From contig NZ_PVUE01000009.1 of NCBI RefSeq assembly GCF_003003235.1, forward strand, positions 1 to 64,000: a stretch of DNA of 64,000 nucleotides. Reading direction: 5' to 3'. This DNA is from Antricoccus suffuscus. GTDB taxonomy: Bacteria; Actinomycetota; Actinomycetes; Mycobacteriales; Antricoccaceae. The notes beneath the pieces are model-generated. The model did not search any database, had not been told where the DNA came from, and was given only the letters and a program-made list of their open reading frames with translations. Of this stretch, positions 61,708 to 64,000 are shown in pieces. Positions within the stretch are counted from its first letter, which is position 1, and every line of letters begins with the position of its first letter. The position numbers were made by a program, and so were the translations under genes.

Positions 61708-63150
61708 ATGAGCACCTCGATCGACCTGCCTAATGGTTTAGTGGCCATCGTGAAGCAGGAGTGCGCGACCTGCCAGCTCGTCGAGCCGGTGCTGCAGTCA
61801 CTCACGGGCCGCGACGACGTCGCACTGACCGTCTATACCCAGGACGATCTGCAGTTTCCGGCCGGCGTCGATCCGGTCGACGACACCGAGCTTGAGGTGA
61901 GCTGGCATCTGGACATCGAGACGGTGCCCACGCTGATCCGGGTCAAGGACGGCCACGAGGTCGAGCGGACCGTCGGATGGATGCGCAGTGAATGGGAGCG
62001 GGTCGCCGGTATCGACGGACTCGGACCGGACCTACCAGAACACCGTCCGGGTTGCGGGTCGCTGTCGGTCGACCCTGACCTGGTCGACGCGCTCCGCGTG
62101 AAGTTCGAGGGGTCGAGCCTGCACTCGCGCCACGTGGAGTTGGCGGAGCAAGAGGATGAGTTCGAGGCGCTTTTCTCGCGCGGATGGACCGATGGCCTCC
62201 CCGTCGTACCTCCCACCGAGGAGCGTGTGCTGCGGATGCTCACCGGTACGACGCGAGGCCCGCAGGATGTCGTCGCCGTCATTCCGCCCGATCTCGTCCC
62301 GGTGACTGTCGAGAAGGTCGCGATCGCGGCGGTCATGGCGGGGTGTCTGCCGGAGTACCTGCCGTGGGTGCTGACCGCGGTCGAGGCCGTGTGCACCGAT
62401 GAGTTCAATATGCACGGCGTACTCGCCACGACGATGCCGGTGGGTCCGGTGATCGTGTGCAGCGGTCCCGGCACGCGGCGGATCGGGATGAACTCCGAGG
62501 GCAACGCACTCGGACAGGGCAATCGGGCCAACCTGACGATTGGTCGTGCCCTGCAGCTGGTCGTCCGCAACGTCGGCGGTGGCCGCCCGGGCGGCGTCGA
62601 TCGGGCCACGCAAGGCAACCCCGGAAAGCTGTCGTTTTGTTTCGCCGAACGTCCCGATACGCCGTTCGGTCCACTCGCCGAACATCACGGCGTCGCACCC
62701 GGCGTCGACGCGATCACCGTTTTTGCCGGCGAGGCGCCTCGATGCATCGTCGACCAGAAGACGCGTGATCCCGAGGGGCTCGCGGCCTCGATGGCCGTCT
62801 GCCTGCGGTCGGTGCACCATCCGAAGCTGGTCCAAGGTTTCGATGCCATCCTCGTACTCAGCCCCGAGCACGGTAGTCGCTTCGCGGACGCCGGCTGGGA
62901 TTACGACCGGGTCGTGCAGGAAATCCGTTCGCATGTCGATATCGATACCGACGAACTCATCTCCGGTGCCGGTGGCATCGCCGAAGGGATTCCCGCGTCG
63001 CTAGCGGGCAAGCGCATCAACAAGTTCGCACCGGGTGGTCTCATGCTCGCGTACGCCGGCGGCGAGGCGGGGCTCTTCTCGGCCGTCATCGGTGGCTGGG
63101 CGAATGGCGCCGTTGGATCGCGACCGGTCACTCGGGAAGTGGTAGCGTGA
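61708..63150 (+). CDS. Thioredoxin-like domain fused to a large uncharacterised domain, neighbour of the UGSC protein
   Basis: Residues 1-110 have a thioredoxin-like fold: CxxC at Cys19-Ala-Thr-Cys22, a cis-Pro candidate in ETVPTLIRVKDG, and a strand pattern VALTVYTQD. From about residue 155 a separate domain begins (SRGWTDGLPVVPPTEERVL) and runs to the end, with Gly-rich conserved-looking runs such as GPGTRRIGMNSEG, GQGNRANLTIGRAL, and RPGGVDRATQGNPGK. I do not recognise this second domain by name. The 480-residue protein is followed 25 bases later by the selenocysteine-candidate gene; the pair looks like one transcription unit with the crotonase. The CxxC domain may reduce or be reduced by the Sec-containing partner. 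Confidence 0.75.
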   Translation: MSTSIDLPNGLVAIVKQECATCQLVEPVLQSLTGRDDVALTVYTQDDLQFPAGVDPVDDTELEVSWHLDIETVPTLIRVKDGHEVERTVGWMRSEWERVAGIDGLGPDLPEHRPGCGSLSVDPDLVDALRVKFEGSSLHSRHVELAEQEDEFEALFSRGWTDGLPVVPPTEERVLRMLTGTTRGPQDVVAVIPPDLVPVTVEKVAIAAVMAGCLPEYLPWVLTAVEAVCTDEFNMHGVLATTMPVGPVIVCSGPGTRRIGMNSEGNALGQGNRANLTIGRALQLVVRNVGGGRPGGVDRATQGNPGKLSFCFAERPDTPFGPLAEHHGVAPGVDAITVFAGEAPRCIVDQKTRDPEGLAASMAVCLRSVHHPKLVQGFDAILVLSPEHGSRFADAGWDYDRVVQEIRSHVDIDTDELISGAGGIAEGIPASLAGKRINKFAPGGLMLAYAGGEAGLFSAVIGGWANGAVGSRPVTREVVA

Positions 63151-63175
63151 CGCCAGTCTCTGAAGGGCGGGTCCG

Positions 63176-63691
63176 ATGACTACGATCCTCGATCCCACTG
63201 GCGAACGCTCGCCGGTAGCACGGCAGCGCGTCGAGCGACCAGGGTCGCTCGACGGAAAGACCGTGGGGCTGCTCGATATTTCTAAACCACGTGGCGACAT
63301 ATTCCTCGACCGACTCGAGCAGCGGCTCGTCGGAGTAGGCGCCAAGGTACATCGATACAAGAAGCCCACCTTTACCAAACCGGCGCCGGCGGACTTGCGT
63401 TACGAGATCTCCACGCAGTGCGACATGGTCGTCGAAGCGCTCGCCGATTGAGGCAGTTGTACGTCGTGCAGTGTGCATGACATCAGTGATCTCGAACAGC
63501 GCGGGCTTCCGGGCGTCATGATCGCGACCACAGGGTTCGTGACGGCGGCCCAGACCCAGGCTGACGCTCTCGGCTTCGGCACGATCGCGCGTGTCTTCAC
63601 GCCGCACCCGGTCCAAGACCGCACCGACGACGAGATGCGTGAGTACGCCGACGGTGTTTTCGACTCCGTGGTCGAGCAGCTGACCAGCTAG
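63176..63691 (+). CDS. UGSC-family selenoprotein candidate (in-frame TGA read as selenocysteine)
   Basis: The frame from ATG 63176 runs for 91 codons, meets TGA at 63449-63451, and continues in the same frame for 79 more codons to TAG at 63691. The sequence on both sides reads as one protein: VVEALAD-U-GSCTSC-SVHDISDLEQRG, with Sec92, Cys95 and Cys98. Family members that I recall are named after this U/C-G-S-C motif, with Cys or Sec at the first position. The following hairpin (63463-63481) fits a bacterial SECIS. The 171-residue product is probably a cytoplasmic redox protein. If UGA were a real stop, only a 91-residue fragment would be made. Function unknown; it sits right behind the thioredoxin-fold fusion gene. 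Confidence 0.8.
63463..63481 (+). promoter_or_regulatory. Candidate bacterial SECIS hairpin
   Basis: GTCGTGC (63463-63469) pairs with GCATGAC (63475-63481), one pair being G-U, around the loop AGTGT. The loop holds the GU that SelB contacts in known bacterial elements and lies about 20 bases after the TGA, inside the usual spacing. It lies in the coding frame as expected in bacteria. Confidence 0.65.
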
Positions 63692-64000
63692 GCGGCGTTG
63701 TTGGCGGCCTCGGTCAGCAACGGCAGATATTTATCTAGCATCCATGGCAGACTCAACACGGTCACCGCGCTCGTCGCGTACACCATCGGCGGATCGGTGA
63801 TGGGGACGTAACTATCGGTGCTGACCGCCGTGAGGTCTTTGAATAGCTGGTTCCCCTCGATTTCGCTCTGTAGCTCGTCGTTGAGGTACCAGGCAACGAG
63901 TACGTCGGTCTTGACGTCGGAGAGAGTTTCCATGCTGACCTTCTTGGCGAAGGACTCTCCGCCACTGCTTTTCTGCTTGGCGATACTTGGCGATGGGGTG
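63688..64000 (-). CDS. C-terminal part of an iron-siderophore ABC transporter binding protein
   Basis: The frame is open from the right window edge to a stop at 63688-63690. About 103 residues are visible, ending DKYLPLLTEAANNAA. The pattern LVAWYLNDELQSEIEGNQLF, then DLTAVSTDSYVPITDPPMVY and SLPWMLDKYLPLL matches the C-terminal half of FecB/FepB-type siderophore-binding lipoproteins. The N-terminus, signal peptide and start lie outside. It converges on the UGSC gene with a 4-bp overlap. An apparent internal ATG at 63931 is not the start. Confidence 0.8.
   Translation of the reverse strand, partial: TPSPSIAKQKSSGGESFAKKVSMETLSDVKTDVLVAWYLNDELQSEIEGNQLFKDLTAVSTDSYVPITDPPMVYATSAVTVLSLPWMLDKYLPLLTEAANNAA

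Follow-up and report, generated by a model that had tools for sequence, protein, structure and literature searches.

A UGSC-family selenoprotein gene and its companion gene in Antricoccus suffuscus: probable distant kinship with GrdB/PrdB and a proposed thioredoxin-fed reductase

The window analysed here is a stretch of 64,000 nucleotides from the genome of Antricoccus suffuscus, and near its end a gene of the UGSC family of selenoproteins directly follows a companion gene on the same strand. The frame at 63176-63691 starts with ATG and runs over 91 codons to an in-frame TGA and over another 79 to a TAG, exactly as claimed in the initial annotation, which had found it interrupted only by the TGA at 63449-63451. 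The motif around this codon, previously read as U-G-S-C-T-S-C, is U92-G-S-C95-T-S-C98 and contains the [U/C]-G-S-C sequence by which the family is recognised. The features of the locus are as follows.

61708-63150, forward strand: companion gene, 480 amino acids, ending 25 nt before the UGSC start and placed by its adjacency to UGSC in relatives.
61708-62016, forward strand: N-terminal thioredoxin-like domain of the companion with a CxxC motif (C19-A-T-C22), assigned from PDB thioredoxins and a structure match.
62140-63147, forward strand: core domain of the companion, about 330 residues, with the motifs DGLPVxPPT ... MAGCxPE ... GxRANxTIGRA.
63176-63691, forward strand: UGSC family selenoprotein gene, 171 amino acids with Sec as residue 92 and the stop TAG at 63689-63691.
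63449-63451, forward strand: in-frame UGA, read as selenocysteine U92; TGA in 80 of the 80 nearest relatives and a Cys codon in 21 distant ones.
63458-63460, forward strand: Cys95, the likely resolving partner in a U-x-x-C pair, from its conservation across homologues.
63463-63481, forward strand: bacterial SECIS hairpin, 8 bp including an A-U closing pair, with the apical GUG at 63471-63473.

Two family models match the protein translated through the TGA: NCBIfam NF041046, UGSC family (seleno)protein (E 1.6e-48, 164.5 bits against a cut-off of 125), and Pfam PF24696 (E 3.9e-47, 161 bits against a cut-off of 25). Both matches span the full profile and exceed the curated cut-offs. With the family of these two models the gene shares the whole-length match, the UGSC motif, the SECIS and a Sec or Cys at the active position, and it differs from them in nothing essential. 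UGSC was described in 2008 as a major selenoprotein group in the Global Ocean Sampling (GOS) data (PMC2398784), and as of 2026 the family is listed without known function (PMC13188914). The gene at 63176-63691 is thus a real selenoprotein gene, and it belongs to a catalogued family for which NCBIfam and Pfam models already exist. Given that family, a selenoprotein comes as no surprise, and what the present analysis adds concerns its kin, its fold and its partner gene. The companion context, the paralogous Sec cassette described below, the fold and the kinship are absent from the literature sources that we found.

Among the 108 UGSC genes examined, the site codon is TGA in 87 and a Cys codon in 21; the homologue check that had been suggested for position 92 therefore finds either Sec (TGA) or Cys aligned there. 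The host genome contains selA (C6:150064, E 3.6e-93), selB (C2:298976, over the cut-off), selD (C6:156595, E 3.4e-114) and a tRNA-Sec with the anticodon UCA (C2:301556, 79 bits), which bears out the prediction that SelA, SelB, SelC and SelD would be encoded elsewhere in the genome. SelA is present in all 5 of 5 sampled genomes with the TGA form, and among the remaining sampled UGSC genomes five gave no SelA match and a sixth a partial, marginal match only. In a tree of the family the Sec and Cys labels are clustered, but the branches are long, and for that reason we claim no direction of change between the two residues. Cys95 is retained in the Sec homologues and in nearly all Cys homologues (as CGSC). 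Since Cys98 is not retained in the latter, Cys95 seems to be the likelier partner of Sec92.

The hairpin downstream of the UGA, described at the outset as a 7-bp stem with the loop AGTGT, does exist at 63463-63481 as GUCGUGC-AGUGU-GCAUGAC, with one G-U pair in the stem. RNAfold adds the A-U closing pair, giving 8 bp around GUG at -9.1 kcal/mol. It lies 12-30 nt downstream of the UGA, and its apical loop begins 18-19 nt past that codon, in agreement with the earlier statement that the distance fits bacterial SECIS elements (published range 16-37 nt). The bacterial SECIS model in PMC13188914 specifies a loop of 3-9 nt, the pattern N1-G-[G/U]-N-N2, a spacing of 16-37 nt and an MFE <= -7.5, and the hairpin falls within all of these limits. 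Taken alone it stands out only slightly: comparable hairpin criteria are satisfied by 354 of 20,000 synonymous recodings (1.8%), and its wider 39-nt context folds with an ordinary energy (z -0.1). The folding energy of one sequence is no useful SECIS test here, and a search of 63000-64000 against Rfam found nothing.

The SECIS reading is settled because it rests on comparison across genes rather than on folding of a single sequence. The stem keeps 6-7 of its 7 pairs in 86 of the 87 TGA genes and the loop AGTGT is kept in 85 of the 87, while in the Cys genes the hairpin is degraded, mostly to 3-5 of 7 pairs. Compensatory changes are seen at step 4 of the stem, where the pair is G-C, G-U, A-U or U-G, and at the top of the stem, where a paralogue has G-C instead of C-G. 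In the 81 close genes the hairpin codons are nearly frozen as ACG-TCG-TGC-AGT-GTG-CAY-GAC: codons 96, 98, 99, 100 and 102 have zero synonymous variation, and the synonymous entropy is 0.11 bits at codon 97 and 0.33 bits at codon 101, against a mean of 1.17 in other conserved columns.

These comparisons bear on two other interpretations of the TGA. If it were an ordinary stop, the gene would be broken in two fragments as a pseudogene or through a sequencing error. The frame alone does hold a stop codon, at which a conventional gene finder would cut the gene in two, as the initial annotation had anticipated. However, the TGA stands at exactly the same codon in 87 TGA genes, the full-length frame is conserved on both sides of it, the hairpin codons are almost without synonymous change and the Sec machinery of the genome is complete. 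The comparative sequence data have already refuted this interpretation, and we assign it a negligible probability. Reading of the UGA as some other amino acid, whether by general stop suppression or by an altered code, is equally improbable; nothing specific speaks for it, and it is opposed by the Cys at the aligned position in homologues, by the match of the hairpin to the bacterial SECIS pattern and by the presence of tRNA-Sec(UCA) together with SelA, SelB and SelD. Judging from the sequence comparisons, UGA codon 92 almost certainly inserts Sec in the UGSC protein.

In 76 of 80 relatives the companion gene immediately precedes UGSC in the same orientation, with a gap of -4 to 94 nt; in 3 of the other 4 the contig ends too soon upstream to show one. 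Its N-terminal domain is related to PDB thioredoxins (E 7.7e-4; structure match with Z of about 10), and C19 and C22 are invariant across 36 aligned sequences. The motifs of the core domain are conserved across 17 diverse companions, and the core matched no Pfam or NCBIfam family. A weak Foldseek match of the core to class I fumarase (E 1.2e-3, TM 0.2) was set aside. In distant Cys genomes UGSC adjoins a companion that consists of the core domain and lacks the thioredoxin domain, usually placed downstream, and electron delivery via the thioredoxin domain would therefore not be universal. The GOS authors reported a fusion of UGSC to an unnamed domain (PMC2398784), and our guess is that this domain, Unknown_1, corresponds to the companion. 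No neighbour other than the companion is constant across the 80 loci, so the context points to no substrate. Downstream of UGSC, at window 63688-64000 and L130:3689-9601, a gene for a substrate-binding protein runs in the opposite orientation; beyond it come genes whose products resemble, by eye, ribosomal proteins S6 and L9 and Ssb, followed by two FecCD-like permease genes. We saw no sign of a link between these downstream genes and UGSC.

Two further UGSC genes with an in-frame TGA are present in the host genome, and they lie at a second Sec locus.

C2:292604-301647: second Sec locus of the same genome, with three companion-family domains, one of them inside a fusion.

The gene at C2:292604 is a paralogue in one frame of 581 residues, in which a UGSC domain containing an in-frame TGA (codon 105) is followed by a companion core. 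The order of genes on contig C2 is an MFS transporter, this UGSC-companion fusion, the third UGSC gene with its TGA, a second companion, a thioredoxin-reductase-like protein, a third companion, an ArsP-like permease, selB and tRNA-Sec. The thioredoxin-reductase-like gene within the cassette supports a thioredoxin-fed redox cycle. An AlkZ-like DNA glycosylase gene (PF06224, L128:1235-2662) is also found at this locus, two genes upstream of the fusion.

It could be argued that UGSC and its neighbour have separate roles, with the companion serving some other pathway as an enzyme; its core is of no known family, and where a genome has several UGSC copies, a copy sometimes stands with no companion seen beside it. 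Separate action is nevertheless unlikely, since the two genes adjoin each other in 76 of 80 relatives and, in either order, in most distant Cys genomes, occur as a natural in-frame fusion and have no other constant neighbour. We consider it likely that UGSC and its partner work together.

An AlphaFold2 model built with 51 relatives gives an alpha/beta protein (pLDDT 88.5, pTM 0.85), in which a strand at 84-90 leads to U92 and a helix at 93-108, so that Sec follows the third strand. Among solved structures, the model matches flavodoxin, CheY, PurE and dipicolinate-synthase-like proteins. Since these are general Rossmann-like folds, the matches support the architecture and point to no particular family. 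There are no thioredoxin chains among the structure matches listed, and a PDB sequence search with the UGSC profile returned no relative. The fold of UGSC is thus predicted by the model to be Rossmann-like and not thioredoxin-like, although the GOS paper had guessed that it was likely Trx-like (PMC2398784).

That guess, the UxxC motif in UGSC and the thioredoxin domain encoded in the neighbouring gene would all suit a general Trx-fold thiol:disulfide oxidoreductase or peroxidase in place of a GrdB/PrdB-like reductase component. Such an enzyme is, however, at odds with the predicted Rossmann-like fold, in which Sec comes behind the third strand, with the structure matches to flavodoxin, CheY, PurE and dipicolinate-synthase-like proteins and with the profile kinship described below. 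Moreover, the likeness to thioredoxin resides in the N-terminal approximately 100 residues of the companion with their CxxC, that is, in the partner and not in UGSC. We therefore rate this possibility as unlikely.

The kinship of UGSC with GrdB/PrdB was visible in weak matches of the NCBIfam GrdF and GrdB models to 46 and 40 of the 51 UGSC members, respectively, across the Sec region (best E 1.4e-4 and 3.9e-5). For a comparison of profiles, a GRDB profile was made of 15 GrdB and 12 short PrdB-like proteins of the phylum, each of which has its in-frame TGA at the equivalent position. Alignment of the UGSC profile to it by hhalign yields a score of 58.8 (E 7e-8) and places Sec on Sec. The trimmed profile scores 53.3, versus 20.1 for the best of 150 column shuffles and 19.6 for the reversed profile. 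A 9-column match with a score of 133 in 1 of 8 early shuffle controls is treated as an artefact of the program, and it occurred in 0 of 150 after gap-rich columns had been removed. On these profile comparisons, UGSC and the Sec domain of GrdB/PrdB are very probably distant homologues. A paper stating this homology was not found in the literature searched, a search that was not exhaustive.

UGSC and GrdB/PrdB (PF07355, TIGR04483) share the homologous C-terminal Sec domain with its U-x-x-C, and small standalone PrdB-like forms occur in the same phylum. In contrast, UGSC is without the N-terminal region of GrdB and lies far below the cut-offs of the Grd families: its own genome shows no PF07355 match, and its TIGR01917 score is 16.5 bits against a cut-off of 602. 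Being below the family cut-offs (PF07355, TIGR01917/01918), it is a distant relative and not a member. GrdB and PrdB take part in the reductive cleavage of C-N bonds together with a pyruvoyl partner. The host genome of UGSC differs in having no gene of the GrdE/PrdA type (no PF09338), and without a pyruvoyl partner the activation of the substrate must differ from that in GrdB/PrdB. Comparison of the companion core with the GrdE and GRDB profiles detected no kinship (hhalign score of 12.6 and P 0.83 for GrdE), and pyruvoyl-type chemistry as in proline reductase is therefore unsupported for it.

Taken as a whole, the best explanation of the locus, to which we give a probability of about 0.9, is a UGSC selenoprotein with GrdB/PrdB kinship that would form a thioredoxin-fed two-component reductase with its partner. 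SelB and tRNA-Sec(UCA) would read UGA codon 92 as Sec under the direction of the SECIS hairpin, and the predicted fold would place Sec92 at the N-terminal end of a helix, straight after a beta-strand. The selenolate of Sec92 may then serve as nucleophile or reductant and attack or reduce a substrate that the core domain of the partner would bind or activate. Cys95 would presumably resolve Sec92 as a selenenylsulfide, which the CxxC thioredoxin domain of the partner might reduce before being recharged by thioredoxin reductase. We give the details of this scheme about an even chance of being correct. Somewhat more tentatively, UGSC and its partner could represent a new two-component selenoenzyme of actinobacteria, in which a stripped-down Sec domain of the GrdB/PrdB type is combined with a substrate domain of no known family and a built-in thioredoxin, and which works without a pyruvoyl partner.

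If this is true, UGSC, so far presumed to be Trx-like, would become a substrate reductase that can be tested as such and that acts outside anaerobic amino-acid fermentation. The family ranks among the commonest selenoproteins in water metagenomes; it now has a place beside the reductases of glycine and proline and a link to a single constant partner gene, and this kinship and the partner open its function to direct experiments.

Of 396 genomes sampled from the phylum, 76 have a PF07355 match. Actinobacterial genomes encode short PrdB-like selenoproteins that stand alone, seen at 12 loci and about 50 further places; most of these have U-P-[LVI]-C following the in-frame TGA. Full-length GrdB-type genes with an in-frame TGA and U-G-T-[GS]-T-R are also found. 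GrdE-type (PF09338) matches are present in 10 of 10 genomes searched that have full-length GrdB, nearly always near the GrdB gene.
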